A stretch of DNA of 64,000 nt from Taklimakanibacter albus (GTDB lineage: Bacteria > Pseudomonadota > Alphaproteobacteria > Rhizobiales > Aestuariivirgaceae). Positions 12,751 to 29,509 of this stretch are shown here, in pieces (within the stretch, counting starts at the first letter, position 1; every line of letters starts with the position of its first letter). The stretch lies in the NCBI RefSeq assembly GCF_016595235.1, contig NZ_JAENHL010000008.1, positions 1,820,624 to 1,884,623 on the forward strand. Reading direction: 5' to 3'. Below the pieces are notes generated by a model. It searched no databases. It was given only the letters and a program-made list of their open reading frames with translations, and was not told where the DNA came from. The translations under genes and the position numbers were made by a program.

Positions 12751-15027
12751 ATGAGTACTGATAAACGGGCGGCCCGGCCGAGCTTTACCGAACAGGAGGC
12801 GCTGCTCTTCCACCAGCGCGGCAAACCGGGAAAACTGGAAATCAATCCGACCAAGCCGATGGCGACGCAGCGTGATCTGTCGCTGGCTTACAGCCCCGGC
12901 GTCGCTGTACCCGTCCGTAAGATCGCCGAAGACCCCGACACCGCCTATGACTACACGGCGAAAGGCAATTTCGTCGCCGTCATCACCAACGGCACCGCCA
13001 TTCTGGGCCTGGGTGATCTGGGCGCCTTGGCCGCGAAGCCGGTCATGGAAGGCAAGGCGGTGCTGTTCAAGCGCTTCGCCGATGTCGATTCGATCGATCT
13101 CGAGGTCGACACCAAGGATGTCGACGAATTCATCGGCGCGGTGCGTTATCTCGGCCCCACTTTCGGCGGCATCAATCTCGAGGACATCAAGGCGCCGGAG
13201 TGCTTCATCATCGAGCAGCGGCTGCGCGAACTCATGGACATCCCGGTATTCCATGACGACCAGCATGGCACGGCCATCATCTCGGCCGCGGCCCTCATCA
13301 ATGCGCTCGCCATCACCAAGCGCGACATCAAGAAATTCAAGCTCGTCTGCAATGGCGCCGGCGCCGCCGCCATCGCCTGCATCGAGCTCATCAAATCCAT
13401 GGGCGTGCCGCCGCAGAACGTCATTCTCGCGGACTCGAAGGGCGTGGTCTACAAGGGCCGCACCGAAGGCATGAACCAGTGGAAATCGGCGCATGCGATC
13501 GAGACCAAGGCGCGCACCCTCGCCGAGGCGATGGAAGGGGCGGATGTGTTCTTCGGCCTCTCCGCCGCCGGCGCGCTGACGCCCGCGATGGTCAAGAGCA
13601 TGGCGAAGAACCCGATCATCTTCGCCATGGCCAATCCCGATCCCGAAATCACCCCGGAAGAAGTTTCCAAGGTGAGGGATGACGCCATCATGGCGACAGG
13701 GCGTTCCGACTATCCCAACCAGGTCAACAATGTCTTGGGCTTCCCCTATATCTTCCGCGGCGCCCTCGATGTGCGCGCCCGCACCATCAACGATCAGATG
13801 AAGATCGCCGCCGCCGAGGCGCTGGCGGCATTGGCGCGTGAAGAAGTGCCGGACGAAGTCGCCGCCGCCTATCACGGTTCGCGGATGCAATTCGGCCCCG
13901 GCTATCTCATCCCGGTGCCTTTCGACCCGCGTCTCATTTCGCGCATTCCGGTGGCGGTTGCCCGGGCCGCGATGGAATCGGGTGTGGCCCGTAAAGCCAT
14001 CGCCGATCTCGATGCCTATGCGGGCGAGCTCTCCGCCCGCCTCAACCCGATCGCCGGCACGCTGCAGAACATCTACGAAAGCGTCAAGTCCAACCCGAAG
14101 CGCGTCGTCTTCGCCGAAGGCGAGGAAGACCGGATGATCCGCGCCGCCAACAGCTTCGCCAATAACGGCCTCGGCAAGGCGATCCTCGTCGGACGCGAGG
14201 CGCAGATCGAGGAGGCGTTGAAGATCAGCGCCGTCGAGCTGGCCGACAATGTCGAGATCACCAATGCCAAGCTCTCGGCGCGCAATGTCGATTATGCCAA
14301 CTACCTCTATGAAAGGCTGCAGCGCAACGGCTTCCTGTTCCGCGACTGCCAGCGCCTCGTCAACAACGACCGCAACGTCTTCGCCGCCTGCATGCTGGCG
14401 CTCAACGACGCCGATGCGGTGGTGACCGGCCTCACGCGCAACTTCTCCGTCGCCCTCGACAATGTGAGGCGCGCCATCGACAACCGGCCGGGCCACAAGC
14501 CGATCGGCGTCTCCATGGCGCTGGTGCGCGGGCGCACCGTGTTCATCGCCGACACCTCGATCCACGAGCTGCCGTCGGCCGAGGAACTCGCCGATATCGC
14601 GCAGGAGGCCGCGGGCGTGGCGCGCCGCTTCGGCTACGAGCCCAAGGTGGCGTTCCTGTCCTATTCGACCTTCGGTTATCCGAAGGGCGAGCGCTCCGAA
14701 TATGTACGCAAGGCGGTGACCATCCTCGACAAGCGCAATGTCGATTTCGAATATGACGGTGAGATGGGCGCCGACGTCGCGCTGTCACGCGAGGCGATGG
14801 CGCTTTATCCGTTCTGCCGCCTCACCGGACCCGCCAATGTGCTGGTCATGCCGGCGGCGCATTCGGCTTCGATCTCGACCAAGATGCTGCAACAGCTGGG
14901 CGGCGTCACGGTGGTGGGACCGCTTCTCACCGGCCTCGACAAGCCGGTGCAGATCGCCTCGATGTCTGCGACGGCGACCGACATCGTCAATCTGGCGGCG
15001 ATCGCAGCTTACGACATCAATCGTTGA
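12751..15027 (+). CDS. maeB: NADP-type malic enzyme with phosphotransacetylase-like C-terminal domain
   Basis: A 758-residue fused malic enzyme, the usual architecture of proteobacterial MaeB. Residues 1 to about 430 are the malic enzyme ([15 protein letters not shown] near 50, then [12 protein letters not shown] and the nucleotide fold [12 protein letters not shown]), which decarboxylates malate to pyruvate. Residues about 440-758 are a phosphate-acetyltransferase-like domain, usually considered regulatory. GGGGAAATT precedes the ATG. It is divergent from mutS and convergent with the OlsB-like gene, with a repeat hairpin between the two ends. Confidence 0.95.
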
Positions 15028-15074
15028 TCACAATGCTCCCGGGCGGCGGTCTCACCGTCGTCCGGTCTCTTTTT

Positions 15075-15124
15075 CCGCATCGGCTTAGCCCGAAAACCGC
15101 TTCGCACTTTTCGGGCCGATGCGG
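15075..15124. repeat. Intergenic palindrome, GCATCGGC family, copy 1
   Basis: Nested inverted repeat: outer arms CCGCATCGGC (15075-15084) and GCCGATGCGG (15115-15124), inner arms CCCGAAAA (15089-15096) and TTTTCGGG (15108-15115). It fills the gap between convergent maeB and the OlsB-like gene and touches the latter's stop codon at 15125. Related copies are at 29467-29509 and 48621-48665. It could end transcription from both sides, although no U-tract follows. Confidence 0.8.
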
Positions 15125-16015
15125 TCACGATTGCGTGAGGGGATTCTCGCCGGGCTGTCCGAAATAGGAGAAGTAGCGCGGATTGATCGCCGAGATCGGC
15201 AGGATGATCAGCACGTCGATCGTATTGAACTGGTGATCGACCACCGCGCCATCGCCGATATAGCAGCCGAGCCGCAGATAGCCCTTGATGAGCGGCGGCA
15301 AGATGCGCAAGGCGCGTTTGGCGTCGACCTTGGCGGGCGGCAGGACATTCATCTCCACCTTGCGGCCGGGCAGCGCGCTCACTTGCCATTCGGGCGGCGG
15401 CGCACTGTTCTGCGCCATGAAGCTCAGCGCCATCGCGTGATGCGCGGGATCGGTGCCTTCGAGACTGGCGCAGCCCAGCATCACGTCGAGATCATAGAGG
15501 CGGACATAATTCCAGATGCCCTGCCAGAGCAGCTCGACCACCGGCTTGGTGCGATAGGGCTTCAATACACAGGACCGGCCGAGCTCGAGGAATTTGAGCC
15601 CGCTATGGCGCTTGATCAGCGGCGCGATATCGAATTCGTCTTGGGTATAGAAGCCGCCCGAATGCTCGGCGACCGACTGGCGCAGAAGCCGGTAGGTACC
15701 GACGAGCTCGCCATCCTCGACCCTGATCTCATCGGGTCCCACCGCCGCGCCCTTGCGCACGACGAGCAGATGATCGCAGATCGCGTCGTAACGATCGGCG
15801 TCGCGCCGGCTCGCCAACGCTTTCGCATCGGGCTTGGCCTCGAGTTCTTCGTAGAAGACGCGGTAGCGCAGATGCTGAGCGGCATCGATGTCGGCCGCAC
15901 CGTCGGCCAGCCTGACGGTCAAGTCAGCCTTGGTGCCGAGCACGAAGCCCGGATCAATCCCATCGCGCCCGGGCGCCCCGCCGCGGGGGCGTGGTGCTAG
16001 AGAATGTACGGCCAT
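15125..16015 (-). CDS. OlsB-like L-ornithine N-alpha-acyltransferase (hemolysin-related GNAT)
   Basis: A 296-residue protein of the acyl-ACP-dependent acyltransferase family that includes OlsB, which attaches a 3-hydroxy fatty acid to ornithine in the first step of ornithine lipid synthesis. Visible features are LRYRVFYEELEA near the N-terminus, RDADRYDAICDHLLV, the central VGTYRLL, and LELGRSCVLKPYRT. The start MAVHSLAPRP at 16015 is preferred over a GC-rich upstream extension of 17 codons. A PlsC/OlsA-type gene lies at 147-917, so both steps of ornithine lipid synthesis may be encoded in this window. Downstream of the hybrid kinase on the same strand, with its own 108-base spacer. Confidence 0.82.
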   Translation of the reverse strand: MAVHSLAPRPRGGAPGRDGIDPGFVLGTKADLTVRLADGAADIDAAQHLRYRVFYEELEAKPDAKALASRRDADRYDAICDHLLVVRKGAAVGPDEIRVEDGELVGTYRLLRQSVAEHSGGFYTQDEFDIAPLIKRHSGLKFLELGRSCVLKPYRTKPVVELLWQGIWNYVRLYDLDVMLGCASLEGTDPAHHAMALSFMAQNSAPPPEWQVSALPGRKVEMNVLPPAKVDAKRALRILPPLIKGYLRLGCYIGDGAVVDHQFNTIDVLIILPISAINPRYFSYFGQPGENPLTQS

Positions 16016-16123
16016 CAAGCCCTGCCTCCGCAAACCGGCCTGCTGCCGGCCGCCGCACAGTGCCACAGACCGAAGAACAAAGAAAGTTCACAGACCGGTG
16101 ACGGCACTCCACCTTCCCATTCG

Positions 16124-17986
16124 TCAAGCCGCCGGACGCCGGGCGGTCAGCGCGGTAATCGCCTCGTCGAGATCCTGGCGATCGAAGGGCTTCGCCATAT
16201 GACCGTTCATACCGGCGGCCAGGCAGGCGGCCTGATCGGCGGAACTGGCATTGGCGGTCAAAGCGAGAATGGGAACATCCGGCATGAATTGGCCGGCCCT
16301 GAGCCGACGCGCGGTTTCGAGACCGTCGAGCTCCGGCATCTGGACATCCATGATGATGAGATCGGGACGGCCGCCGTTCTCGATATAATCGAGCACCGCC
16401 TTGCCGTTGGTCACGTGATGGACGGCGTGATCGGATTTCTCCAGCAAGGTGCGGGTCAGGAGCGCATTGACCGGATTGTCCTCGGCGAGCAGCACATTGA
16501 GATGCGCCGTCTTCTTCTTGACCGACGCCACGCGGCGCAGATCGCTGACGGCGCTGGCGATGGTGTGATCGTCGCTCTGCAGCAGCTGACGCAGCAAGGT
16601 GGTGCGTCGCAACGGCTTCAGCAGATAGCCGGCGAAGGGACTGCCGAGAAAATCGCGCAATGCCCGGCGCTCCTCGGCTTGAAGCAGCGTGAAGATGGGT
16701 TTTCCAGGCGGGCGCTTGCCGTCATGCGCGGCGCGCCAGACCGCGAGTGTCGCGGCGAAACTCGAATCGCAAATGAGGCCATTGGCGGAATGCGGCTTGC
16801 GCAGGGCCTGGCGCAACGCCGTATCGCCGGCGACGGGGCGCGTCTCGGCGCCGAGCCCTTTGAGCGTCGCCTCGAGGCTCGCCAAGGTCGGTCCCGCCGG
16901 CACGGCGAGCTCATAGATACGGCCCTTCAAAGGCTCGTTGGGCTTCTCGTTGCGCACGCTGACGCAAGGCAGGCTGACGCGGAAGCGCGATCCCTTGCCG
17001 CGCTCGCTATCCACCGTGACGCCGCCGCCCATGCTCTGGGCGAGATTGCGCGAGATCGACAGACCAAGGCCGGTGCCGCCATAACGGCGCTGCGTATCCT
17101 CGCCCGCTTGCGCGAATTCCTCGAAGATGCGCGCCTGCTCCTCGGCCGTCATGCCGATGCCGGTATCGGCGATCTCGGCGATGAAGGTGATCTTCTCGGG
17201 ATCGCCGTCACAGGATGTCGATGAAAGCGTGATCGCCACGCCGCCATGATCGGTGAATTTGATCGCGTTGCCGGCGAGATTGAGGAAAATCTGACGCAGG
17301 CGCAATTCGTCGACGAGGATGCGCGGCGGCAGCGAGACGGCGCCCGAGCAGGTGATCTCGATACCCTTGGCATGCGCGCGGGGCGCCAGAAGTTCGGTGA
17401 CACTTTCGGCCAGGATCAACGGATCGATCCAATCGGGGGCGAGCGCGACGCGGCCCGATTCGATCTTCGAGATGTCGAGGATCTCGTCGATGATCGAGAG
17501 CAGCGAACGCGCCGAGGCATCGACCGCGCCGGCATAATTGCGCTGCTCGGGATTGAGATCGGTGTCGAGCAGAAGTCCGTTCATGCCGATGATGCCGTTC
17601 ATCGGGGTGCGGATCTCATGGCTGGTCGCGGCGAGGAAGCGGCTCTTGGCCTGGCTCGCGGCCTCGGCCTCCTCGCGCGCCTGCTGCAAGGTGGTAAGCA
17701 CCGTCTCGATGCTTTCGCGGCGCATGTCGGAAGCGCGCCGGCCGAAATAGACGGCGAGCGCCACGACGCAGGTGAGGAAGACGCCGATCGGCGCCCAGGC
17801 CCGGTTCAGACCGTCGCCGCCGAAGATGAAATGCACGCACAGAGCGAGGCCCGCCGCGAGCAGCAGCGTGCCGCCCGCGAATTGCAGCGGGCTGAAGCGA
17901 ATACCGGGTCTGGCCAACACACCGAGCGCTTGGGTGAGCGCTGCGGTGCGGTCGGCCAGACCATCCTGTTTGCGGGAAGACTCCAT
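16124..17986 (-). CDS. Membrane-bound hybrid sensor histidine kinase
   Basis: A 620-residue kinase: two hydrophobic segments near residues 30-50 and 60-78, a coiled linker ([19 protein letters not shown]), a HisKA domain with phospho-acceptor His in SHEIRTP near 121, an ATPase with DTGIGM and [10 protein letters not shown], a central region resembling a degenerate receiver (ICDSS, then [12 protein letters not shown]), and an intact C-terminal receiver with LLAEDNPVN and the acceptor Asp in [12 protein letters not shown]. There is almost no periplasmic sensing domain, so input may come from the membrane or cytoplasm. No response regulator or phosphotransfer gene is adjacent. An in-frame start 17 codons upstream is possible. 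Confidence 0.9.
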
Positions 17987-18090
17987 AAGGGCCTGCCACT
18001 TCGTTTTTTTGACGCCTGTTGTCCGGCAAACTCGCACAGCCGGATTAGCAAAAGCCTACCGCGTAAGATGAGCGTCAATAAAGAGTAAAC

Positions 18091-18558
18091 TCAGCCCAAT
18101 CTCGGCGTCCGTCGCCAGACCGGCGAGGACTGGATGATCGAGGTGTTGGTCTGCGCATAGGGCAATAATCGGTCGATGACACGCTCGAGATCCTCGATGC
18201 GGGCGACGAAGACCTTAGCGATGAAACAATCATCCCCGGTGACGCGGTCACATTCGACGATTTCGGGAATGTCGGCGAGAAGGGCCGCGACCCGCGGCAA
18301 TTCCCCCATCGCCGGGCGCACCCTTATATAGGCGCCGAGGGCGAGGCCGAGCGCCACATGATCGAGCTTCACCGTATAGCCTGAAATGACACCCAGATCC
18401 TCGAGGCGGCGCGCCCGGTCGGCGGCACTTTGCGCCGACATGCCGATGAGGCGGCCGAGATCGGCCATGGAAATGCGGGCATTGCCGGCGAGCGCGGTCA
18501 GAATCTGATGGTCGGCGGCGTCGAGAGCAACGCCTGAGATTCTACGATTATTTTTCAC
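18091..18558 (-). CDS. Lrp/AsnC-family transcriptional regulator
   Basis: A 155-residue feast/famine regulator: N-terminal helix-turn-helix (LTALAGNARISMADLGRLIGMS, residues about 19-40) and a C-terminal RAM effector domain starting near 75 with YIRVRP. It begins with GTG at 18558, supported by CGGAGGT six bases upstream. It is divergent from the EamA exporter gene and separated from it by only 84 bases, so regulation of that exporter by an amino acid is the natural inference. The ligand is not predictable. Confidence 0.9.
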   Translation of the reverse strand: MKNNRRISGVALDAADHQILTALAGNARISMADLGRLIGMSAQSAADRARRLEDLGVISGYTVKLDHVALGLALGAYIRVRPAMGELPRVAALLADIPEIVECDRVTGDDCFIAKVFVARIEDLERVIDRLLPYAQTNTSIIQSSPVWRRTPRLG

Positions 18559-18642
18559 ATTGACCTCCGAATGCCTGGATATTGTCCGTTTATACTACTA
18601 TTCTTAAGTCGCTTCGGGCGAAATTTCCTTCATTCTGAAGGT

Positions 18643-19503
18643 ATGAACGGGTTCGCAGAGCGGCTGCCGCCACATGTCTATTTCCTGATCAGCGCCGTCT
18701 TCCATTATCTGGGGCCGTCCTTCGCCGTGCTGCTGTTCGCCCATCTGTCGCCTGAGGGCGTCGCCTGGCTCCGGATCGCCGCCGCCGCCGCTTTGTTCGC
18801 CCTCTGGCGCAGCCCGCTGCGGACACTCGGCGAAGCGACGTCCCGGTCCCGCCGCCTCATCCTGCTGCTCGGCCTCATTCTGGCCGCCATGAATATCTGC
18901 TTCTATCTGGCGATCGCCCGTTTGCCGCTCGCCACGGTCGCCGGGATCGAATTCGCCGCCACCATCGCGGTGGCGCTTTTCGGGCTGCGGAACTTGCGCA
19001 ACCTGACCGCTCTTGCCTTCGCGGTCGCGGGTGTCTTCCTGCTCATCGGCTTCACCGCCGCGGGCGATCCCTTGGGCCTCATCTTCGCCTTCGCCAATGC
19101 GGTCCTCTTCGCCCTCTACATCATTGTCGGCCACGCGCTCGCCGAAGAAGGCGGCGCCTCCGGCGTAATGCGGCTCGCCGCCGCCATGACGGTCGCCTTC
19201 ATCCTGGCGTCACCCTTCGGCATCGGCGATGTCGCCACCGTGCTGGCGCATCCGCTTCTGATCCTGGCCGGCATCGGTGTCGGCCTCTCTTCCTCCGTCA
19301 TTCCCTATATCTGCGACCAGCTGGCGATGGCGCGGCTGCCGCGGGCGAGCTTCGCGCTCATGCTGAGCCTGCTCCCCGCCATCGCCGCAGTGACCGGCGC
19401 CGTCGTGCTCCGGCAGATACCCGGGCCCGCCGATCTCCTGGGCATTCTCCTGGTCGTTCTGGGAGTCGGCCTGCATCAGCCGGCTGAACGCTTGCCCCAA
19501 TAG
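18643..19503 (+). CDS. EamA/RhtA-like metabolite exporter
   Basis: A membrane protein of 286 residues with about ten hydrophobic segments in two tandem EamA repeats, resembling RhtA-type amino-acid (threonine/homoserine) exporters. The ATG at 18643 puts the first membrane segment (VYFLISAVFHYLG) at residue 12, which fits the family better than the ATG at 18571. It is divergent from an Lrp/AsnC regulator, a common arrangement for amino-acid exporters. Its last 28 bases overlap the convergent gene at 19476. Confidence 0.85.
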   Translation: MNGFAERLPPHVYFLISAVFHYLGPSFAVLLFAHLSPEGVAWLRIAAAAALFALWRSPLRTLGEATSRSRRLILLLGLILAAMNICFYLAIARLPLATVAGIEFAATIAVALFGLRNLRNLTALAFAVAGVFLLIGFTAAGDPLGLIFAFANAVLFALYIIVGHALAEEGGASGVMRLAAAMTVAFILASPFGIGDVATVLAHPLLILAGIGVGLSSSVIPYICDQLAMARLPRASFALMLSLLPAIAAVTGAVVLRQIPGPADLLGILLVVLGVGLHQPAERLPQ

Positions 19504-19883
19504 TCAAAAGCGAGCTTCTGCCGGCGCCGCACGAAAGTCTGCGCCTCCTTGCCGGTCCACGGCCCCTCGTAACCCAGGCGATGGAGCTTATCGATCCACC
19601 AACCCTGACCGGGCAGCCGGTCGGATTCTCGAACCACCAGGGCCGCGAGCTCCGGTTCGCGGGCGGTGTGGCCGGCCTCGTCGATCGCGGTGAGCGTTCG
19701 GCACAACGCCCGCATCTTGGGCCGCGTGAAGCGATGACCGAGCTCCATCAGCAATTCCGCATAGCTCACGTCGCGCCGCTCCCGCGCCGCCTTGATCAGC
19801 AGTGCCCTCACCGCCGCGACATCGCTGATCGGCGTGCCGGGAAGCTCGTCGAATGAATCGTGGCTGTCGCGCATCCTGCTCAT
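19476..19883 (-). CDS. Conserved-looking hypothetical protein
   Basis: A 135-residue, mostly helical, basic protein with no signal peptide or membrane segment. Features: an N-terminal AAVRALLIKAARERRDVSYAELL, a Trp/Gly-rich centre (LPGQGWWIDKLHRLGY) and a C-terminal RRRQKLAFDYWG. The first half looks like a small helical DNA- or protein-binding fold, but I cannot assign a family. The codon pattern looks coding, and the 28-base overlap with the convergent exporter is typical of compact genomes. ATG at 19874 is an alternative start. Confidence 0.6.
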   Translation of the reverse strand: MSRMRDSHDSFDELPGTPISDVAAVRALLIKAARERRDVSYAELLMELGHRFTRPKMRALCRTLTAIDEAGHTAREPELAALVVRESDRLPGQGWWIDKLHRLGYEGPWTGKEAQTFVRRRQKLAFDYWGKRSAG

Positions 19884-19943
19884 GGAGCGAGATTAGCACT
19901 GCCGGACGAGACTTGCATGCGCTCGCTCAGATCGTTAGCGCGC

Positions 19944-20648
19944 TTAGCGCAGCCGGACATCACCATCATGAATGAAGCAGGTCTTGTCGAAGAGCCTCAG
20001 ATCCAGCGGATTGGGCAATCGCACATCGTCGAGATCGGGAAGCGGCTTTTTCGCCGGATCAAACGAGCGATCGATCTGCGAGAGAAAGGCGATGATCAGG
20101 CCGCGGGCTTGCGCGAAGGATCTGAGCGCCTGGACCTGGATCATCAGCGCCGGCTTCTCGCGCTTCTGGTCGAGCAGCTGGAGGTAGTCCACGACGACGA
20201 ACGTGCCGCGCTGCGCCGATGCCAGCTTCGACATGATGTAATCGGCGCTGATGGCATCGGAACTGTCGAAATCGAAGAGCGGACGGAAATCCGTCCAGTC
20301 GACGCCGATGGTCCGGAAGCTTTTCTCGATATCCCCTTGCGCCGCCTCCAGGCTGAAAAAGGCGCCACGCCCGCCGGCGTTCATAGCTTCGACGGTCAGC
20401 TCAAGGCTGAGCAAGGTCTTGCCGTGACCTGGACGCGCGCCGATCAGCACCAGATCGCCGGGCTTCAGCTGGGTGAAGAGATCACGCGGCGACAGGGTCG
20501 CGGTGCTTTTCGCGGCGAGCAGGCTCCAGCGGGCGAAGCCTTCGCCGGCGGCGATGCGGTCGAGCGCATCATGAAGGGGAATGCCCTTCTCGCGCGACAG
20601 ACGCTTGGCGCTGCGTTTCAAATGATAGACGGGAGCGGACAGTTTCAT
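19944..20648 (-). CDS. Short DnaB-like RecA-fold ATPase
   Basis: A 234-residue protein whose residues about 65-234 match the RecA-type core of replicative helicase DnaB: Walker A GARPGHGKT, then FFSLEA, VVVDYLQLLDQ (Walker B) and FLSQIDRSFD. Residues 1-55 (MKLSAPVYHLKRSAKRLSREK...GFARWSLLAAK) form a separate small helical module instead of the normal DnaB N-terminal domain. The protein is about half the length of DnaB, so it is not the replicative helicase. The start at 20648 is fixed by AGGAGG about seven bases upstream. Substrate and role are unknown. Confidence 0.8.
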   Translation of the reverse strand: MKLSAPVYHLKRSAKRLSREKGIPLHDALDRIAAGEGFARWSLLAAKSTATLSPRDLFTQLKPGDLVLIGARPGHGKTLLSLELTVEAMNAGGRGAFFSLEAAQGDIEKSFRTIGVDWTDFRPLFDFDSSDAISADYIMSKLASAQRGTFVVVDYLQLLDQKREKPALMIQVQALRSFAQARGLIIAFLSQIDRSFDPAKKPLPDLDDVRLPNPLDLRLFDKTCFIHDGDVRLR

Positions 20649-20875
20649 CTCAAACCTCCTATGCGAGCCTCTTTCGCAATCCCTCCGCATGCTGGGTGCC
20701 CGAACAGTCGGTCCGAAATCAAATTAGCCCCGCATGAAATGTGCTTTCCCGTTGGAGGGGGGAGGCATGGGCCGTGCCAGAATCAGATGATAGCGGATTT
20801 TCCGTTGCTGGAGAATTGCCCCGTTCCCGACGCTTGGTGTGCACTTCACGCAGCGTGATAAGCGGGAAGTTCTGC

Positions 20876-21418
20876 CTACACGGAGAAGACAGAGAATATT
20901 CGATAAGGGCCTGGCTCGCAGTCCTTGAAGGCTCCCCTCTTCAGATGAGCAATCGCCTCCTCCAGCGATGGGAGGAGGCAATGCTGATTGACGCTGAGCT
21001 TCAGGGCCATGCTGTTGCATGAAAGTGGAGAGCATTCCGGCCCCGCACCCGCATAGAATGTGACGGCATCAAATCCCTCGAGTGTCTTGATCCCCGGTAC
21101 AGTGACATTGGCGGCAGCGGTGTGATGAGGTGCCTGCAATGGTCCTTCACGGCCTTCATCATCGAATTGCCGCTCATAAATCTCATAATAGAAGAAGCGC
21201 GTATCCTTGAGGTCGACCGATTTCTTTGCCGCAATCTCCCGAATGACGTCGATGGAATCGAAGAGCCAGAACCCGTTGTGTTTCCACTCGGTGTGACAGT
21301 CGTCGACAAACCAGCTCGATACGCAGGCGCTGACGGAATAGACGTCTTTCACGCGAGCAGCGCCAAGCCAATCAGGGCGATCGGCCACAAACTTTGCCAT
21401 ATAGCCGGCGGGGATCAT
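20876..21418 (-). CDS. Hypothetical protein downstream of comM
   Basis: A 180-residue soluble protein rich in aromatic residues (SSWFVDDCHTEWKHNGFWLFDS, RFFYYEIYERQFDDEG) with no signal peptide, membrane segment or motif I recognise. It starts 22 bases after the comM stop on the same strand and might be cotranscribed. Codon usage is less GC-biased than its neighbours. The FDSIDVIREIA and FYYEIYERQFD segments suggest a mixed alpha/beta fold. No function can be assigned. Confidence 0.55.
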   Translation of the reverse strand: MIPAGYMAKFVADRPDWLGAARVKDVYSVSACVSSWFVDDCHTEWKHNGFWLFDSIDVIREIAAKKSVDLKDTRFFYYEIYERQFDDEGREGPLQAPHHTAAANVTVPGIKTLEGFDAVTFYAGAGPECSPLSCNSMALKLSVNQHCLLPSLEEAIAHLKRGAFKDCEPGPYRIFSVFSV

Positions 21419-21440
21419 GATGCACGCCTGTTCCAGCGGA

Positions 21441-22973
21441 TCACGCCGCCTGGCGGAAGGCGGCGAGCTTCTGGCGGTAGCTCAGCGCCTCGACGATGTG
21501 GATGCGGCCGACCCGGTCCTGACCGTCGAGATCGGCGAGCGTACGGGCGACGCGCAGCACGCGGTGATAGCCGCGCGCCGACAGCATCATCTGATCGGAA
21601 GCCTCCTGCAGGATGCGCAGGCCCGGATCGTCGGGCGTGGCGATCTGATCGAGAACCTGGCCATCGGCCTGGGCATTCGTCGTCAGATGGCGCACCCCCA
21701 ATCTCGCGAAGCGTGCACGCTGGCGGTCGCGCGCCTGCGCCACCCGCGCCGCCACTTCGGCGCTCCCTTCCGAAGGCGCGGACCTGGCCAGATCGGCGGC
21801 GCGCACGGCGCCGAGCTCGATCTGAATATCGAGGCGATCGATCAGCGGGCCCGACAAACGCGCCTGATAGTCACCGGCACAGCGCTGGCCCTTGGCGCAG
21901 ACATGACCGGGCTCGCCGGCCATGCCGCATTTGCACGGGTTCATCGCCGCGACGAGCTGGAAACGCGCGGGATAAGTCACGTGATAATTAGCCCGCGCCA
22001 CTTGCGTCTCACCCGTCTCCAGCGGCTGGCGCAGTGCTTCAAGCACGCGCGGCTGGAATTCCGGCAATTCATCGAGGAACAGCACGCCATGATGGCTCAA
22101 GGAAATCTCACCCGGCTTGGCGCGCAAGCCGCCGCCGACCAGCGCCGGCATGCTGGCCGAATGATGTGGCGACCGGAAAGGCCGCTTGCGCGTCACCTTG
22201 CCTTCCGCCAATTCACCGGCGAGGGAAGCGATCATGCTCGCTTCCAGCATCTCGCGTGCATCCATCGGCGGCAGGATCGACGGCAGGCGCTGCGCCAGCA
22301 TGGATTTGCCGGCGCCCGGCGGCCCGACCATCAGCAAATGGTGGGATCCAGCCGCCGCCACTTCGAGGGCGCGTTTGCCGGCCTCCTGGCCTTTGATGTC
22401 TTTCAGATCGGGCAAGCGGCCATGATCCTCGGCGATGCCGGGCGCCGGCCTGGACAGGACCTGCGTGCCCTTCACATGATTGAGGATCTGGATGATCGTC
22501 TGTGGGCTGATGATATCGACCTCGTCACCCGCCCAGGCGGCTTCCGGGCCGCAGGCTCGGGGGCAGATGAGGCCGAGACCCCGGGCATTGGCGGCGATCG
22601 CGGCGGGCAGCGCACCGGTGACGGCGCCCAGGGCCCCATCGAGGCCCATCTCGCCGATCACCATATAGCGGTTGAGGAAATCCTGGGGCAGCACGCCCAG
22701 AGCCGACAGCACCGCCAAAGCGATGGGCAGGTCGTAATGGCTGCCCTCCTTGGGGAGATCGGCGGGCGAGAGATTGACCGCCAGCCGCTTGCCCGGCAGC
22801 GCCAGGCCGACAGCGAACAACGCCGCCCGCACCCTTTCGCGGCTTTCCACCACTGCCTTGTCGGCGAGCCCAACGATATTGAACTGCACCTGGCCCGACA
22901 GAAACTGGGCCTGGACATCGACCGGCACCGCCTCGATGCCCTGAAAGGCGACCGTTGTTGCATGCGCCGTCAT
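21441..22973 (-). CDS. comM: ComM/YifB-type magnesium-chelatase-like AAA+ ATPase
   Basis: A full-length 510-residue ComM: N-terminal Lon-protease-like fold (VQFNIVGLADKAVVESRERV), central AAA+ with Walker A GPPGAGKSMLAQRLP and Walker B LFLDELPEF, a Cys cluster (MNPCKCGMAGEPGHVCAKGQ) and a C-terminal helical domain. ComM homologues are hexameric helicases that aid branch migration when transformed DNA is integrated. GAGGGG precedes the ATG. It is divergent from the toxin-antitoxin operon, sharing a 134-base spacer. Confidence 0.94.
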   Translation of the reverse strand: MTAHATTVAFQGIEAVPVDVQAQFLSGQVQFNIVGLADKAVVESRERVRAALFAVGLALPGKRLAVNLSPADLPKEGSHYDLPIALAVLSALGVLPQDFLNRYMVIGEMGLDGALGAVTGALPAAIAANARGLGLICPRACGPEAAWAGDEVDIISPQTIIQILNHVKGTQVLSRPAPGIAEDHGRLPDLKDIKGQEAGKRALEVAAAGSHHLLMVGPPGAGKSMLAQRLPSILPPMDAREMLEASMIASLAGELAEGKVTRKRPFRSPHHSASMPALVGGGLRAKPGEISLSHHGVLFLDELPEFQPRVLEALRQPLETGETQVARANYHVTYPARFQLVAAMNPCKCGMAGEPGHVCAKGQRCAGDYQARLSGPLIDRLDIQIELGAVRAADLARSAPSEGSAEVAARVAQARDRQRARFARLGVRHLTTNAQADGQVLDQIATPDDPGLRILQEASDQMMLSARGYHRVLRVARTLADLDGQDRVGRIHIVEALSYRQKLAAFRQAA

Positions 22974-23071
22974 GAAGGCCCCTCTATTGCACTTTCACAA
23001 CGTAAACCGGCCTGCTACAAAGTTCAAGAACATTAAGAGAACATACTTGTCGCCTCGATCAGACTTGCGTT

Positions 23072-23103
23072 ATTACCTCATAAGGTATACCTTAAAAGGT
23101 AAT
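23072..23103. promoter_or_regulatory. Palindromic operator of the toxin-antitoxin operon
   Basis: A 32-base dyad directly before the toxin gene: core TAAGGTATACCTTA (23081-23094) is a perfect 14-bp palindrome, and the outer arms ATTACCT (23072-23078) and AGGTAAT (23097-23103) also pair. Only two central-flank positions fail to match. It covers the likely -10 region and the AAAGGT ribosome-binding site, so binding by the HTH antitoxin would block both; this is inferred from its position. Confidence 0.7.
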
Positions 23104-23107
23104 AGAA

Positions 23108-23476
23108 TTGAGCCGGCCCACGAAAATCCTGCAGGCGGCCTTTTATGCTTCAAGCACCGGAAAGCGGCCGGTGCGCGAATGGCTCATGGAGCTGGCGCCA
23201 GAGGACCGGAAGAGCATTGGCGAGGACATAGCGACATTGGAATTCTGCTGGCCGGTCGGGATGCCCAAATGCTCCCCGATGAAGAATGTGAAAGGTCTCT
23301 ATGAAATTCGATCCAACATCTCATCGGGACGGATCGCCCGCATATTTTTCGTCTTGACCGGCAATCAAACGGTGCTTCTGCATGGCTTCGCGAAGAAAAC
23401 GCAGAAGACGCCGGACAGAGAACTCAAATTGGCATCAGCTCGCCTGAAGGAAGTGCGGCACTATGAAAAAGATTAG
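23108..23476 (+). CDS. RelE/HigB-type toxin (Gp49-like)
   Basis: A 122-residue basic protein of the phage-derived Gp49/HigB toxin family: short beta-rich domain with KRPVREWLMEL, MKNVKGLYEIRSN, RIFFVLTGNQTVLLHGFAKKTQKTP and a helical tail. Relatives are ribosome-dependent mRNA endonucleases. The start is TTG at 23108 with AAAGGT ahead of it; no in-frame ATG precedes the domain. It overlaps the antitoxin gene by 14 bases in the toxin-first order characteristic of HigBA. Confidence 0.88.
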   Translation: MSRPTKILQAAFYASSTGKRPVREWLMELAPEDRKSIGEDIATLEFCWPVGMPKCSPMKNVKGLYEIRSNISSGRIARIFFVLTGNQTVLLHGFAKKTQKTPDRELKLASARLKEVRHYEKD

Positions 23477-23753
23477 GAACCCGCATACTGGTGAAAGCTT
23501 CGAGAGCTTCCTGCAGGATGAAGGCATTTACGAAGAGGTCACCGCGACCGCCATCAAGCGGACCATCGCGCTCCAGATCGCTCATGAGATGACCGCGCAG
23601 AAGATATCCAAATCCGAAATGGCGCGACGCATGAAAACGAGCGCCACTCAGCTTGGAAGGCTGCTCGATCCCGACAATGACCGCGTGCAGCTGGACACTC
23701 TGGTCAAGGCCGCGACAGCGGTCGGGAAAAGCCTGTGGGTGAAGCTGGCATAG
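23463..23753 (+). CDS. HigA-like XRE-family antitoxin
   Basis: A 96-residue protein with a Cro/CI-type helix-turn-helix at about 38-85 (TAQKISKSEMARRMKTSATQLGRLLDP). HigA antitoxins neutralise the toxin and repress the operon. It follows and overlaps the toxin gene, with GGAAG upstream of the ATG. The palindrome at 23072-23103 is its probable binding site. Both residues and order fit a complete, intact toxin-antitoxin module. Confidence 0.88.
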   Translation: MKKIRNPHTGESFESFLQDEGIYEEVTATAIKRTIALQIAHEMTAQKISKSEMARRMKTSATQLGRLLDPDNDRVQLDTLVKAATAVGKSLWVKLA

Positions 23754-23800
23754 CGGCATCTCCTGCTTATCTTTAGGAATGAAATGCCTATACTGCGCGC

Positions 23801-24556
23801 ATGCCCGCATCGTCCATTTTCATTCCCTCGCCTGAACCGAACGTGAGATTGAAGCTCTTTGTGGCGCGCCCGCCGACCGATGATCCCGTCCCCACCATCA
23901 TCTTCAATCACGGCTCGACCGGCAGGGGCGTCAACAAGGCCGTGTATTCGCGGCGATGGTGTCCGTCCCACATGCAGGATTATTTCACGCAGCGCGGCTG
24001 GATGGTCGTGTTCCCGCAACGCCGCGGCCGTGGCGGGTCGGAAGGTGTCTATGGCGAAGGCCTGGCCGCCGATGGCAGCGGCTATTCTTGCCAGCCCGAT
24101 ATCGCGCTGGCGGGTTTCGAGAGAGCCGTCGCCGATATCGATGCCGTCATGGCCCATCTCAAGACCCGCAAAGATGTCGATTTCGGGCGCATCGCCATCG
24201 GCGGCGCCTCGCGTGGCGGCATCTTGTCGATCGCCTATGCGGGCATGCGACCGGAAAGCTTAGTCGGCGCCGTCAATTTCAATGGCGGCTGGCTCGGAAG
24301 AGCCTGCCCCTCGCATGAGACCGTCAATCCGCTGATCTTCAAACGGGGCGCCGCCAACAAAGCGCCAACGATCTGGCTGCATGGCAGCTACGATCAATAT
24401 TACCGCATCGCCCACTGCCGCCGGAATTTCGATGGGTTTGTGGCGGCGGGCGGGAAGGGCACCTTCAACGCCGCGCCGATGGGTCACAGCCTTCTCTTCA
24501 AGCCACTCCTGTGGCGCAAGCATCTCGACGCCTTCATGCAGCGTCTGGAGGCATGA
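23801..24556 (+). CDS. Alpha/beta hydrolase (dienelactone-hydrolase-like)
   Basis: A 251-residue alpha/beta hydrolase with oxyanion region NHGSTGRG near 36-43, nucleophile elbow GGASRGG (Ser near 135), a likely catalytic Asp in HGSYDQYY and catalytic His in MGHSLL near 227. No signal peptide is seen, so it is cytoplasmic. The broad family hydrolyses esters, lactones or peptides, and the substrate is not predictable. It starts 48 bases after the antitoxin gene. Just past its stop lies a 57-bp fragment of the kinase gene found 0.9 kb downstream. Confidence 0.82.
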   Translation: MPASSIFIPSPEPNVRLKLFVARPPTDDPVPTIIFNHGSTGRGVNKAVYSRRWCPSHMQDYFTQRGWMVVFPQRRGRGGSEGVYGEGLAADGSGYSCQPDIALAGFERAVADIDAVMAHLKTRKDVDFGRIAIGGASRGGILSIAYAGMRPESLVGAVNFNGGWLGRACPSHETVNPLIFKRGAANKAPTIWLHGSYDQYYRIAHCRRNFDGFVAAGGKGTFNAAPMGHSLLFKPLLWRKHLDAFMQRLEA

Positions 24557-24566
24557 CTTTCATCCT

Positions 24567-24623
24567 GATCCGCCGCGCCATGGCGTCTGGGCTCTCGACA
24601 TCCGTGACGATCATGTCGCTGAA
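24567..24623. repeat. Left copy of a 57-bp direct repeat (fragment of a kinase gene)
   Basis: These 57 bases match 25444-25500 at 52 positions in the same orientation. The right copy lies inside the 3' part of the P-loop kinase gene. Read on the minus strand, the left copy encodes FSDMIVTDVESPDAMA, against FSDVIVTDVESPDVMA in the kinase. The similarity stops abruptly on both sides. The copies bracket the AT-richer membrane protein gene, suggesting an insertion or duplication event. Confidence 0.85.
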
Positions 24624-24692
24624 GACCTAATCGCCCTTTAAAAGCATGATTCCGTAACGTAATCTCCCTGCGGCCTGTCGGAGAAAATCGTC

Positions 24693-25403
24693 ATGGATCA
24701 GATTTCGCTGATATCCAGCCTAAAAGACCACCTTGATATTCTGTCGGGACTTGTCGGCTCAACCGTCGGTTTGGCATTGTTATCTGGCTGGGCCGGTCTT
24801 CAACGAACTGAAACAATCTCTCTTCTCGGAATGACCGTCACTCGGCGCGAGGCATTCTTTCTTCTCGCTGCCATATTTATTGGCGTCAACTTTGCTGCAC
24901 TCATTCTATTCCTGCGCGTCGCAGACCTTTTACAACTTACCGCTGGTGAAAACTCTGTTGCAGCCATCACCGCTCTCGGCTCCCACCCATGGCCCTTCAA
25001 CCCTTACGCATATTTTGGAGATTCAGCATTCTCCACAATATATAGCAGCGTTGGTTACGGATGCTTGATCATCATATGGTGGATCGGGCTTTCAACACTG
25101 ACCCTATTCCAAGACCCGACTGACATTATCTCAAAATCCGTTTACGGACTATTTTTTGCGGTCGGCCTGCTATCCATGCTCGCCATTCAGTATGTGTTTT
25201 TTGTGGTACTCAAGATTCTACCGACGCTCCCATCGGCACTCCAAAGCGGCATTGAGAGCACAATACTCCCCAGAACAATAGCGACATTCGCGGGCATCGG
25301 CATTGGATTCCTGGTGGCCCAGGCCGTGAATACTTTCGCTGGAAAGCGACGGCAGCTTACAAATGAACAACAGATCAACGCGGCGGTCGGCCCAACTAAA
25401 TGA
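24693..25403 (+). CDS. Hypothetical integral membrane protein
   Basis: A 236-residue protein with about five hydrophobic segments (near 18-35, 54-75, 120-137, 152-172 and 195-212) and a short hydrophilic, Gln/Asn-containing C-terminus. I recognise no family. The gene is visibly AT-richer than its neighbours and uses different third positions, and it is flanked by a 57-bp direct repeat, all pointing to recent acquisition. GGAG lies about ten bases before the ATG. It converges on the kinase gene with a 13-base gap. Confidence 0.7.
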   Translation: MDQISLISSLKDHLDILSGLVGSTVGLALLSGWAGLQRTETISLLGMTVTRREAFFLLAAIFIGVNFAALILFLRVADLLQLTAGENSVAAITALGSHPWPFNPYAYFGDSAFSTIYSSVGYGCLIIIWWIGLSTLTLFQDPTDIISKSVYGLFFAVGLLSMLAIQYVFFVVLKILPTLPSALQSGIESTILPRTIATFAGIGIGFLVAQAVNTFAGKRRQLTNEQQINAAVGPTK

Positions 25404-25416
25404 TCAAACACAACAA

Positions 25417-25899
25417 CTACGACCGCAGACCTATCAATCCAGCGATCCGCAGCGCCATGACATCCGGGCTCTCGACATCCGTGACGATCACGTCGCTGAA
25501 ATCCCGCGCGGCATAACCTTCCTCATACATCTCGCGGATGCGGGCGCGCTCTTCGGCGTCCAGCTTGCGGTCGCCGCGATCCTTGAGAACCAGCTCCATC
25601 GGCGGCGCCAGCGTCACGACGAAAAGCCGGGCGTCGCGTTTGGCGCACGCCTCCCGCAGAAGGACGAAGTCCTCAGGCCGCAGCGGATAAGCGATGACCA
25701 GGAAGGAGCGCTGCTTCTCTGCGATGAGCCCGGCCAGCCACGCCGTCGCCCGCTCGATCATTTCCTCGAACGGCACGCCTTCCGGAATGCCGTGATCATC
25801 GCCTTCGATGAATTCGGCGTCGGGCAACATTCCGGCCAGAACGCGGCCGATCGTGCTCTTGCCCGCATTGATCGGGCCGTTGAGGCAGATGACGATCAT
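25417..25899 (-). CDS. Small P-loop kinase (zeta-toxin/shikimate-kinase-like fold)
   Basis: A 160-residue nucleotide-binding protein with Walker A GPINAGKST at residues 8-16 and a lid-like Arg/Glu-rich segment (KLDAEERARIREMYEEG). The size and motifs fit small-molecule kinases and zeta-toxin-like folds. No antitoxin partner is adjacent, so a toxin role is unsupported. It starts just upstream of gshB's stop (14-base gap after gshB in reading order is on the left). A 57-bp piece of its 3' region is repeated at 24567-24623. Confidence 0.75.
   Translation of the reverse strand: MIVICLNGPINAGKSTIGRVLAGMLPDAEFIEGDDHGIPEGVPFEEMIERATAWLAGLIAEKQRSFLVIAYPLRPEDFVLLREACAKRDARLFVVTLAPPMELVLKDRGDRKLDAEERARIREMYEEGYAARDFSDVIVTDVESPDVMALRIAGLIGLRS
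25444..25500. repeat. Right copy of the 57-bp direct repeat, inside the kinase gene
   Basis: It matches 24567-24623 at 52 of 57 bases. It is part of the intact kinase coding sequence (FSDVIVTDVESPDVMALR), so this is the parental copy and the other is the fragment. The five differences are substitutions with no indels. Confidence 0.85.
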
Positions 25900-25913
25900 T
25901 GTCCGGATCGGGT

Positions 25914-26858
25914 TCAGGGCTTCCGCTTGCGCTCGATCGCGTCCCAGATCAGCGCGGCGATATCGGCGCCGCCGAAACGCTTCACTTCGCGGATGCCGGT
26001 CGGCGAGGTGACATTGATCTCGGTCAGCCAGTCGCCGATCACGTCGATGCCGACGAAGATGAGGCCCTTGGCCTTGAGGTCCGGCCCCAGCCTTTCGCAG
26101 ATCTCGCGCTCGCGTTTCGTCAGCTCCGTCGGCTCAGGCCTGCCGCCGACATGCATGTTGGAGCGGTTTTCGTTCGCCGCCGGCACGCGGTTGATGGCGC
26201 CGGCGAATTCGCCGTCGACCAGGATGATGCGTTTGTCGCCCTTGCGCACCTCGGGCAGATAACGTTGCGCAATGAAAGGCTCACGGAAGCTCTGGGTGAA
26301 GAGCTCGACCAGCGCGCCGAAATTCTGATCCTCGCCGCCGAGGCGGAAAATACCGGCGCCGCCATTGCCGTAAAGGGGCTTGAGGATGATCTCGCCATGC
26401 TCGACGCGGAAGGCCTGGAGCTCCTTCGGATCGCGGGTGATGAGGGTCGGCGGCATCAGGTCGCCATACTGCATCACATAAAGCTTCTCCGGCGCGTTAC
26501 GCACTTCGCGTGGGTCGTTCACCACCAGCGTCTTGGGGTGGATCTGCTCCAGCATGTGGGTGATGGTGATGTAGTTCATGTCGAAGGGCGGGTCCTGGCG
26601 CATATGCACCACGTCGAAGCGGCCCAGATCGACGCGCTCTTCCTTGCCCAGCGTGAAATGATTGCCCTTCTCGTCGCGCACCGTCACCGGATGGCCGGTG
26701 GCGAAGAGCGTGTTGCCCTTCAGCGCCAGGCCCTTGGGCTGATAATAGAAGAGATCGTGGCCGCGTGATTGCGCCTCGAGCATGATGGCGAAGGTCGAGT
26801 CGCCCGTTATGTTGATGCTCTCGATCGGATCCATCTGCACGGCAACACGAAGCTTCAT
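25914..26858 (-). CDS. gshB: Glutathione synthetase
   Basis: A 314-residue ATP-grasp enzyme that joins glycine to gamma-glutamylcysteine. Motifs: [16 protein letters not shown] at the N-terminus, [25 protein letters not shown] (ATP-binding loop) and the C-terminal [11 protein letters not shown]. The ATG at 26858 gives the canonical start [12 protein letters not shown]; the longer open frame upstream is antisense-like. It directly follows yraN with one base between, in the conserved rsmI-yraN-gshB order. Confidence 0.97.
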
Positions 26859-26859
26859 A

Positions 26860-27240
26860 TCAGTCTTCCACGATGAAGGCGTTGGGGATGTGTCGCGGCC
26901 ACTGGTAGGGGGAGACCGCGACGATGTCAAAGCGGCAAATTCCGAGCGCCGCCTTGGGGTCGCGCGCCATCCAGACACGCGAAGCGGCGGCGATGCGGCG
27001 CGACTGGTAGTTGGTCACCGCCTCGACGGCGCGGTCGGCGTCGGCCCTGATCTTCACCTCGATGAAGGCGGTCACCTCGCCTTTGCGCATGATGAGATCG
27101 ACCTCGCCCGGCCCCGCTTTGAAACGGCGCGCCAGGAGCCGATAGCCCTTGAGGCGCAGGCTCGCTTCGGCGACCGCCTCGGCCCAGCGGCCGCGGCGCT
27201 CATTGCGCCGTCGGGTCTTTGAGGGCGAGGAGGCGGGCAT
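26860..27240 (-). CDS. YraN/UPF0102 family nuclease-fold protein
   Basis: A 126-residue protein of UPF0102, a restriction-endonuclease-like fold. Motifs: [24 protein letters not shown], then [10 protein letters not shown]...AFIEVKIRA, where Glu, Asp and the E-V-K triad are the family's putative catalytic residues. Its biochemical role is not settled in the family. The start at 27240 lies inside the end of rsmI (41-base overlap) and is supported by AAGGAG five bases upstream. Length matches the family. Confidence 0.93.
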
Positions 27241-28123
27241 AGAGCTCCTTCTTGGGCAGGCCGAAACGATGCGCGACCTCGGCAGCGGCCTTGCTGGCTG
27301 GCATCGAGCGGGCGGCCTCGCGCAAGGCCTCATCGATCTCGTCCTGCGCCGGCGGCGCCTCGTCGCCCGGCGGCGACACCACGAGCGTGATCTCGCCCTT
27401 GATCGTCTGGCGCCCGGCGAGCTCGGCCTGGACCATCGCGGCGTCGCCCCGGATCGCCTCCTCGAAAAGCTTGGTGAGCTCGCGGGTGACGGCCACGTCA
27501 CGCGGGCCCAGGACTTCGGCGATATCGGCCAGAGCGGCGGTGATGCGGCGCGCGCTTTCGAAGAAGATGAGAGTGGCCGGTACTTTCTTGAGGCTCTCCA
27601 GCACACGCCGGCGCTCGCCCTGCTTCTCGGGGAGGAAACCGCAGAACATGAAGCGGTCGGATGGGAGTCCCGACAGAGTGAGGGCCGCCAGAGGCGCCGA
27701 AGCCCCCGGAATGACATGCAGCGGCAGCCCCGCCTCGATGACCGCGCGGCCGAGCTTGTAGCCCGGATCCGACACCAGGGGTGTCCCCGCATCGCTCACC
27801 AGAACCAGGCTCTTCCCCGCCTTCAAGTCCTCCAGAATGCGGGGCCGCAGTTTCGCCGCATTGTGATCATGATAGGGAAGCAGCTTGGCTGTAATACCGT
27901 AGCGATGGAGCAACTTTCCGGTGACCCGCGTGTCCTCGCATAGAATCTCGTCGGCCGCCGCCAGGGCGTTAACCGCCCTTAACGATATATCGGCAAGATG
28001 ACCTATCGGCGTGGCGGTGACGTAAAGGCCGGGCGCCAGGCTTTCCGCCTCGAAAACGACCCCCTTTATGGTATAGCGACGGCCGGACGGGGATTTCGTG
28101 TGAACAGGTGGAGTTGGGGACAT
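27200..28123 (-). CDS. rsmI: 16S rRNA 2'-O-ribose C1402 methyltransferase RsmI
   Basis: A 307-residue tetrapyrrole-methylase-fold enzyme that methylates C1402 of 16S rRNA using S-adenosylmethionine. Visible: GLYVTATPIGHLADIS, then LCEDTRVTGKLL, VSDAGTPLVSDPGYKL and VTRELTKLFEE. A C-terminal helix-turn-helix-like tail ([19 protein letters not shown]) is usual. It is divergent from the LpoA-like lipoprotein gene with about 20 bases between the starts, so their promoters must overlap. Its end overlaps yraN. Confidence 0.96.
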   Translation of the reverse strand: MSPTPPVHTKSPSGRRYTIKGVVFEAESLAPGLYVTATPIGHLADISLRAVNALAAADEILCEDTRVTGKLLHRYGITAKLLPYHDHNAAKLRPRILEDLKAGKSLVLVSDAGTPLVSDPGYKLGRAVIEAGLPLHVIPGASAPLAALTLSGLPSDRFMFCGFLPEKQGERRRVLESLKKVPATLIFFESARRITAALADIAEVLGPRDVAVTRELTKLFEEAIRGDAAMVQAELAGRQTIKGEITLVVSPPGDEAPPAQDEIDEALREAARSMPASKAAAEVAHRFGLPKKELYARLLALKDPTAQ

Positions 28124-28143
28124 TGAACGGACTGAGTGGATCT

Positions 28144-29334
28144 ATGGTGGCAGGGACAATAGCGCCTCGCGCAACTCTTTGGCAGTGGCGCATTTTCCTT
28201 ATCGGCCTCGTTGCCCTGGTCCTCTCCGCCTGCACCTCCTCCAAAATGGGCGATATGTTCAGTGACGCGGGCGTCAAAGGCCAGCAGCTGACCAAACAGG
28301 CCGCCAGCGGGCGCAAAGTGGCGCTGCTTCTGCCGCTGTCCGGTCCCGGCGAGACCAAACGCATCGCCCAGGCCATGAAGCAGGCGGCCGAGCTCGCTCT
28401 GACCGATACCGGCGGCTCCGGCATCACCCTCATCACCAAGGATTCGGGCGGCAATGCCGGCACGGCGCAGGCCGCGGCCCAGGCTGCCCTCAATGAAGGC
28501 GCCGAGCTCATTCTGGGGCCCCTTCTCGCCCCCGAAGTGCAGGCGGTGAAGACCGTCGCCCAAGGCCGCGCCAATGTCATCGCCTTCTCCTCGCAAAGCG
28601 GCGTCGCCGGCCAGGGCACCTATCTCATGAGCTTCCTCCCCGAGGAGGAAGTGGCGAATGTGGTGCGCTACGCGGCGTCCCAGGGCAAACGCAATCTGGC
28701 GCTGCTCTATCCGCAGACCCAATATGGCAACAACGTCCAGGCCGCCCTCAACCGGTCGGCGGGGCCGAGCGGTGTCAAGATCGCCGCATCACAGCCCTTC
28801 GCCCGCGGCCAGTCGAGCGCGGCGGCGGCGCAGCGCATCGCCCAGGACCTCAATGATCCGAGCCGCGGCATCGATTCGATCCTCATTCCAGAAGGCGGCG
28901 AGGCGCTGCGCTCCTTGAGCGCCGCGCTTGAGCAGAACGGTGTCACCCCGGAAAAGGCGAAGATCCTCGGCACCGGCCTGTGGGACGACACGGTCACCCG
29001 CGCGACGCCGATCGCGCAAGGCGGCTGGTATGCCGGTGTGTCGCCCGACATGGTGCAACGTTTCGACAGCAAATATTCGAGCGTCTATGGCGCGAAGCCG
29101 CCGCGCATCGCGAGCCTCGCTTACGATGCGGTGAGCCTCGCCGCGGGCCTTGCCCGCAAGGGCGACTTCTCCTCAGGCGCCATCACCGATGCGGGCGGCT
29201 ATCAGGGCCAGAACGGCCTGTTCCGCTTCCGCTCCAACGGCCTCATCGAACGCGGCCTGTCGATCCTCGAAATGACGCCGTCCGGCCCGCAAGTGGTGGC
29301 GCAGGCGCCGAGCCGCTTCGGCGCGGGATTCTAG
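28144..29334 (+). CDS. Lipoprotein with type I periplasmic-binding fold (LpoA/penicillin-binding-protein-activator-like)
   Basis: A 396-residue lipoprotein: N-terminal membrane segment ending in lipobox LSAC (Cys at about residue 30), then a two-lobed Leu/Ile/Val-binding-type domain (VALLLPLSGPGETKRIA, LILGPLLAPEVQAV). In this genomic position relative to rsmI-yraN-gshB, such proteins correspond to LpoA-like activators of class A penicillin-binding proteins in the outer membrane, but the TPR N-domain of enterobacterial LpoA is missing. The ATG at 28144 with GAGTGGA upstream is preferred to GTG at 28108. A composite repeat starts at its stop codon. Confidence 0.85.
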   Translation: MVAGTIAPRATLWQWRIFLIGLVALVLSACTSSKMGDMFSDAGVKGQQLTKQAASGRKVALLLPLSGPGETKRIAQAMKQAAELALTDTGGSGITLITKDSGGNAGTAQAAAQAALNEGAELILGPLLAPEVQAVKTVAQGRANVIAFSSQSGVAGQGTYLMSFLPEEEVANVVRYAASQGKRNLALLYPQTQYGNNVQAALNRSAGPSGVKIAASQPFARGQSSAAAAQRIAQDLNDPSRGIDSILIPEGGEALRSLSAALEQNGVTPEKAKILGTGLWDDTVTRATPIAQGGWYAGVSPDMVQRFDSKYSSVYGAKPPRIASLAYDAVSLAAGLARKGDFSSGAITDAGGYQGQNGLFRFRSNGLIERGLSILEMTPSGPQVVAQAPSRFGAGF

Positions 29335-29381
29335 AGCGCTTCCCGCCAAAGTTGCTCGACTTTGGCGATAAGGAAGCGCTC
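29334..29381. repeat. Composite repeat, module A (AGCGCTTCC/CGCCAAAG palindrome)
   Basis: Outer arms GAGCGCTTCC (29334-29343) and GGAAGCGCTC (29372-29381), inner arms CGCCAAAG (29344-29351) and CTTTGGCG (29360-29367). It begins on the last base of the lipoprotein gene's stop codon. A nearly identical copy in reverse orientation is at 44701-44748. First of three hairpin modules in this gap. Confidence 0.85.
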
Positions 29382-29398
29382 CAGAATTATATGTTTAC

Positions 29399-29456
29399 GA
29401 GCCCTTTTACCCGTTTTGATCGAATCGGAACGATTCGATCAAAACGGGAAGGGCTC
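29399..29456. repeat. Composite repeat, module B (18-bp perfect stem)
   Basis: Inner arms CCCGTTTTGATCGAATCG (29410-29427) and its exact complement (29431-29448) around a three-base loop, then outer arms GAGCCCTT (29399-29406) and AAGGGCTC (29449-29456). Transcribed either way, this would fold into a very stable hairpin. Only one copy lies in this window. Confidence 0.85.
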
Positions 29457-29466
29457 TAATGGTAGC

Positions 29467-29509
29467 GCATCGGCTTTTCCGAAAAGTCTGCAACTTTTCG
29501 GGCCGATGC
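29467..29509. repeat. Composite repeat, module C (GCATCGGC family, copy 2)
   Basis: Outer arms GCATCGGC (29467-29474) and GCCGATGC (29502-29509), inner arms CCGAAAAG (29479-29486) and CTTTTCGG (29494-29501). It is the same family as 15075-15124 and 48621-48665, and ends three bases before the hemW stop codon. Confidence 0.85.

Follow-up and report, generated by a model that had tools for sequence, protein, structure and literature searches.

How the 3' end of a P-loop kinase-like gene came to lie on both sides of a membrane-protein gene is the question raised by this locus of Taklimakanibacter albus, which we analyzed within a 64,000-nucleotide stretch of the genome (the window). The initial annotation had reported a 57-bp repeat with five substitutions and no indels, and both a repeat search and a self-BLAST of the 64-kb window (E 2.2e-15) recovered it at exactly the same coordinates: the two copies, at 24567–24623 and 25444–25500 on the minus strand, form a direct repeat identical at 52 of 57 positions, with their starts 877 bp apart. 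Between them lies an AT-rich insert of 820 bp (24624–25443, no strand assigned; 49.8% GC versus 63.1% for the window), delimited by the alignment break against the corresponding locus (L005) of a relative from the same genus, G001, from which it is absent. The membrane gene flanked by the copies is indeed of atypical composition, as had been noticed: its ORF (24693–25403) has a GC3 of 0.519 versus 0.675–0.848 in nine other local genes, a range that narrows to 0.732–0.848 for eight genes when the toxin gene (0.675) is left aside. In the whole genome (7.17 Mb), the 981-bp stretch 24540–25520 gives a single match at E ≤ 0.001.

Alignment of the comM–gshB interval of relatives, proposed earlier as a way to find an empty site, uncovered one in G001. 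The flanks of the insert align with G001 at 92.9% identity over 9.8 kb on the left (window positions 14862–24624) and at 95.6% over 3.9 kb on the right (25444–29334), and the aligned flanks overlap by 58 bp in G001, which thus has one copy of the 57 bp, no insert and no membrane gene. This single-copy site without the membrane gene supports the earlier suggestion of an insertion that duplicated its target. The left flank is occupied by an alpha/beta hydrolase gene (23801–24556, plus strand) convergent with the kinase and matching PF02129 and PF12146 above their cut-offs; its ortholog in G001 ends at the same kinase junction, with nothing between the two genes. The repeat pair without the membrane gene, which would have pointed to an unrelated duplication, was seen in neither of the kinase-bearing genomes of the same genus, G001 and G003. 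The intact kinase–hydrolase junction is known from one relative only, G001, and the polarity of the change is read from G001 together with absence elsewhere.

Across a set of 60 genomes, three match the kinase, the own genome included. The two others are among the four further genomes of the genus: G001, with 88% identity along almost the whole protein, and G003, with 67% over residues 54–155 only; G002 and G004 gave no kinase match. The comM–gshB interval varies within the genus. It holds a toxin-antitoxin system, the hydrolase and the kinase in G001, and comM and gshB are 432 bp apart in G002. In G003, the hydrolase sits beside gshB (L015, 9505–10253; two tblastn pieces with a possible frameshift) and a 5'-truncated kinase remnant beside comM (L006, 7248–7562), with about 7 kb of other genes separating them. 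G004, which is 87% complete, gave no match for a gshB ortholog. Outside the genus, 9 of the 28 loci examined hold both comM and gshB, 78–1418 bp apart, and the other 19 end before comM or have no comM nearby; at locus L066, the gap is 928 when taken from a partial comM piece and 90 from its first piece. In the window, a toxin-antitoxin-like pair occupies 23108–23753, with a Gp49/DUF891 protein (PF05973) followed by an HTH protein, in the same interval as in G001.

The target of the insertion is the kinase-like gene itself (25417–25899, minus strand, 160 aa), recognized by its G001 ortholog and by weak matches to Pfam and NCBIfam kinase families, all below the curated cut-offs. Four homologs were found in Burkholderia, at 50–53% identity, and no second match in the own genome at E ≤ 0.001. 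Over 152 codons the gene is 88.8% identical to its G001 ortholog, with a dS of 0.239 and a dN of 0.054, and 11 neighbouring genes have dS values of 0.072–0.318; the body of the kinase is unexceptional as an ortholog of the G001 gene. The two copies of its end have different continuations, as seen in the ORFs and in a codon display. The left copy reads on into RMKVMPPDAA (24537–24566, minus strand; stop at 24534–24536), which overlaps the hydrolase end; these ten residues also end the intact kinase of G001. With a tail of the G001 type and the hydrolase end still attached, the left copy can therefore be identified as the displaced end of the resident kinase. The initial annotation is corrected here, in that the fragment most likely did not arrive from elsewhere.

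The right copy lies inside the live kinase gene, whose last eight codons and stop are now located in the insert (25417–25443, minus strand) and read AGLIGLRS*. In a codon-composition test, these eight codons are in line with the insert and out of line with local codon usage (log-likelihood ratio −4.7): only 0.14% of simulated native tails scored as low, and 53% of simulated insert-like tails scored as high. The chance of a reading frame closing within nine codons in such DNA is about 39%. The new tail also shows some resemblance to kinase ends: the residue adjoining the last conserved Ile is Ala, shared with G003 and three Burkholderia homologs while the fourth Burkholderia homolog has Gly, and the residue at +4 is hydrophobic (Ile), like that of G003 and most Burkholderia homologs. 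More distant kinase homologs have mostly residues other than Ala at that position, and the resemblance may be taken as a weak hint of a real kinase end.

The membrane-protein gene (24693–25403, plus strand, 236 aa) has a GGAG preceding its ATG, and when the insert was resampled 2000 times under a first-order Markov model, the longest ORF reached 236 codons or more only once. Its product contains several transmembrane-like hydrophobic stretches according to hydropathy, and the single-sequence AlphaFold2 model is mostly helical and weak, with a mean pLDDT of 60.6. No family was matched up to E 1 in Pfam, NCBIfam or PADLOC, and the one match in PHROGs is at chance level (E 0.6); no relative was detected among solved structures, phages or plasmids. 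Pattern searches returned 6 stretches in viral contigs and 46 in genome contigs, with none confirmed in either. Within the genus, the gene was absent from searches of G001–G004, the silence of the incomplete G004 (87%) saying little. In draws of genomes from the class, order and family, which overlap one another, the own genome served as positive control (2.5e-149), and weak partial matches at E 4e-4 to 6e-3 appeared in 3 of 384, 2 of 296 and 2 of 68 other genomes, respectively; we regard them as chance. A 22-residue match occurs in locus L057. The membrane gene was also sought beside other kinase 3' ends, as the initial annotation advised: 20 other kinase loci, some of them overlapping and together 111 kb long, gave nothing at E ≤ 1. 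None of the libraries and collections searched yielded a convincing relative of the protein, and the gene is probably a passenger.

The insert itself carries no recombinase or integrase in the ORF list or family profile searches, the membrane ORF being its only sizeable gene. Among 14 inverted pairs with arms of at least 16 nt, none connects both ends of the insert, which thus lacks terminal inverted repeats of at least 16 nt. The insert and its flanks (24500–25600) found no match in plasmids and, in phages, one short piece from a Brevundimonas phage (E 0.008) at 25520–25573, which is kinase and not insert; the repeat core found none in viral contigs. No donor sequence was encountered in phages, plasmids, viral contigs, genome contigs or the class, order and family draws. 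A promoter scan gave two promoter-like sites within the ORF region versus 0.8 expected, and a terminator scan gave none. Target duplications made by transposons and insertion sequences are short and identical, of about 2–14 bp; a transposon, IS or MITE was rejected on the lack of terminal inverted repeats of at least 16 nt, the five mismatches in the 57-bp repeat and the single genomic copy.

The window contains further repeats. A dispersed element at 29331–29461, about 130 bp long and made of two self-complementary halves, lies between genes that we take to be lppC-like and hemW-like, a site at which G001 lacks it; it has at least 64 matches in the own genome, in at least 40 distinct places with 40 of 145 candidates scored, at up to 98% identity, and is MITE- or REPIN-like. 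At 44701–44751, part of this element recurs in inverted orientation, with 96% identity across 51 bp. Another short repeat is dispersed over 15065–15122, 29465–29509 and 48608–48665 (81–86% identical, 47–59 bp), and diverged internal repeats (67–91% identical) at 59731–60456 probably represent a repetitive gene or array.

Whether such repeat-flanked insertions recur was assessed by aligning 424 kb of the own chromosome with 400 kb of G001, which gave about 376 kb in 56 blocks separated by 55 breaks. A flanking repeat of at least 25 bp was present at one of these breaks, the locus described here. One-sided insertions of 100 bp or more (gap of less than 60 bp in the other genome) numbered 28, with 19 in the own genome and nine in G001, and again one alone, the same locus, has a flanking repeat of at least 25 bp; nine short insertions scored as "20 bases, 100%" reflect test windows overlapping themselves, not repeats. 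A recurring class of insertion was rejected on these counts, and a single occurrence among both breaks and insertions is not what a mobile element of regular habit would be expected to leave.

The divergence of the 57-bp copies bears on the age and direction of the event. Of the 57 sites, 5 distinguish the left copy from the right and 8 distinguish either copy from G001; the distances to G003 are 9 for the left copy, 12 for the right copy and 14 for G001. The smaller distance between the copies is in keeping with an event later than the G001 split. By parsimony with G003 as outgroup, the right copy, despite being coding, has three to four private changes and the displaced left copy one to two, the reverse of what in-place duplication and subsequent neutral decay would give; judged from these substitutions, which are too few to decide, the balance would lean mildly towards import of the right copy. 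Along the 57 bp of G001, left-like and right-like states take turns at the differing sites, and a simple left/right hybrid was rejected as no simple crossover point exists.

Taken together, we consider it probable that the structure results from a one-off illegitimate insertion in the window's lineage, after the G001 split and without a dedicated recombinase. An AT-rich foreign segment with one membrane gene would have entered the kinase 3' end by illegitimate joining; the old kinase end would have stayed joined to the hydrolase and become the left copy, and the kinase would have retained its full 57-bp end as the right copy, taking its last eight codons and stop from the insert. As to the submechanism, we tentatively favour, at slightly short of even chances, capture of the foreign fragment at a staggered or re-replicated break, where the 57 bp would have been duplicated by fill-in or template switching and end joining would have completed the event. 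A duplicated target of 57 bp seems long for end joining, and the right copy may have been either duplicated in place or imported with the insert. Ku has three matches above cut-off in the own genome, and a ComEC homolog is found there in one piece; going by these homologies, end joining and DNA uptake would both be possible. In G001, the ComEC homolog matches in two separate pieces (G001:C11:151991-152844; L129, L130), which suggests a broken or split gene.

The alternative with the most in its favour, though unlikely in our estimate, is the recombination with a related kinase locus raised by the initial annotation. The incoming DNA would have consisted of the membrane gene and a diverged kinase 3' end, joined by homology in the kinase on one side and by illegitimate recombination on the other, or else carried on a small circle that recombined by a single crossover within the 57 bp; by either route the resident end would have become the left copy. 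Such an import would account for the divergence of the copies at 5 of 57 sites, for the more numerous private changes of the right copy (3–4 against 1–2) and for the Ala and the hydrophobic residue that the new tail shares with the nearer homologous kinases, and the own genome has the ComEC homolog; the excerpt of PMC2884548 used here describes homology-facilitated import for naturally competent species. Positive proof did not emerge: the dS is ordinary, the genome gives no second match to this kinase at E ≤ 0.001 and the tail codons are insert-like. These codons resemble the AT-rich insert, not the GC-rich kinase, the homology is visible over 57 bp only, and no locus combining kinase and membrane gene was found in genome contigs or the 20 other kinase loci. 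With the kinase dS (0.239) inside the range of its neighbours (0.072–0.318), wholesale replacement by a foreign allele is not supported; import of the last tens of bases only, which would leave no trace in dS, may have occurred.

The direction could also be reversed, if the repeat–gene–repeat arrangement were older and G001 had lost the segment. Deletion between direct repeats of such size and distance is a common event. Repeat-flanked variable segments moreover often have a genome in the empty state (42–66% of such loci in E. coli and S. pyogenes, in the excerpt of PMC2884548). We nevertheless find this loss improbable: the copies differ from each other at fewer sites (5) than each does from G001 (8), G001 is no simple hybrid of them, the other genomes of the genus gave no match to the membrane gene, and an extra event is required. 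Still less probable is a decayed or satellite site-specific element that replaced the target gene's 3' end and left the 57-bp copies as attL and attR. It would explain why the insertion lies in a 3' end, with a new end and stop supplied by the element and the old end displaced to the far side; yet the insert has no integrase-sized ORF besides the membrane gene, the genome no second copy, viral contigs no match to the core and the 27 other insertions nothing comparable, and the repeats mismatch at 9% of positions (91% identical). We give the least credence of all, very little indeed, to a recombinase-free one-gene cassette with orphan cargo and a short copy of a gene 3' end, which host recombination would insert so that the target is re-ended. 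Should the membrane gene be found beside other gene ends, the locus would become a case of recombinase-free gene-end targeting.

Under the preferred reading of a single illegitimate insertion, the locus offers a clean empty-site example in which one orphan gene was gained and the C-terminus of a neighbour altered in one event; the mechanism is ordinary, this kind of genome scar is already known and no new system is indicated. As for insertions by illegitimate recombination in general, the site is empty in G001, transposase and integrase are absent and the segment is not repeated in the genome. Homology-facilitated illegitimate recombination, reportedly described by de Vries and Wackernagel in 2002 and by Prudhomme et al. 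in 2002, likewise links foreign DNA to a resident gene through homology at one of its two sides; in the present case, the homologous piece exists in duplicate instead of having been replaced, and no donor was found. Cis-mobilizable elements and attL–attR remnants of integrative elements occur in gene 3' ends; the present locus shares with them the direct repeats, the gene 3' end restored by the insert and the displaced old end, and differs in its single gene, its lack of a recombinase, its diverged repeats and its single occurrence.

Duplications that arise during transformation via sister chromatids, according to the excerpt of PMC3784515, are mostly of about 100–900 kb, a far larger scale, and provide only a possible analogy for the duplicated target. 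In the excerpt of PMC2884548 (Genome Biol. 2010), direct repeats flank 10–18% of the small variable segments of E. coli, S. aureus and S. pyogenes, 66–94% of the repeats are shorter than 30 bp, and a large share of such segments is proposed to stem from illegitimate recombination. Our locus resembles the microdiversity segments described in that excerpt in being a short extra segment with an empty relative, no mobile-element genes and a flanking direct repeat; unlike them, it has a longer repeat, of 57 bp, which represents the 3' end of a protein-coding gene with a reading frame that now terminates in the insert.
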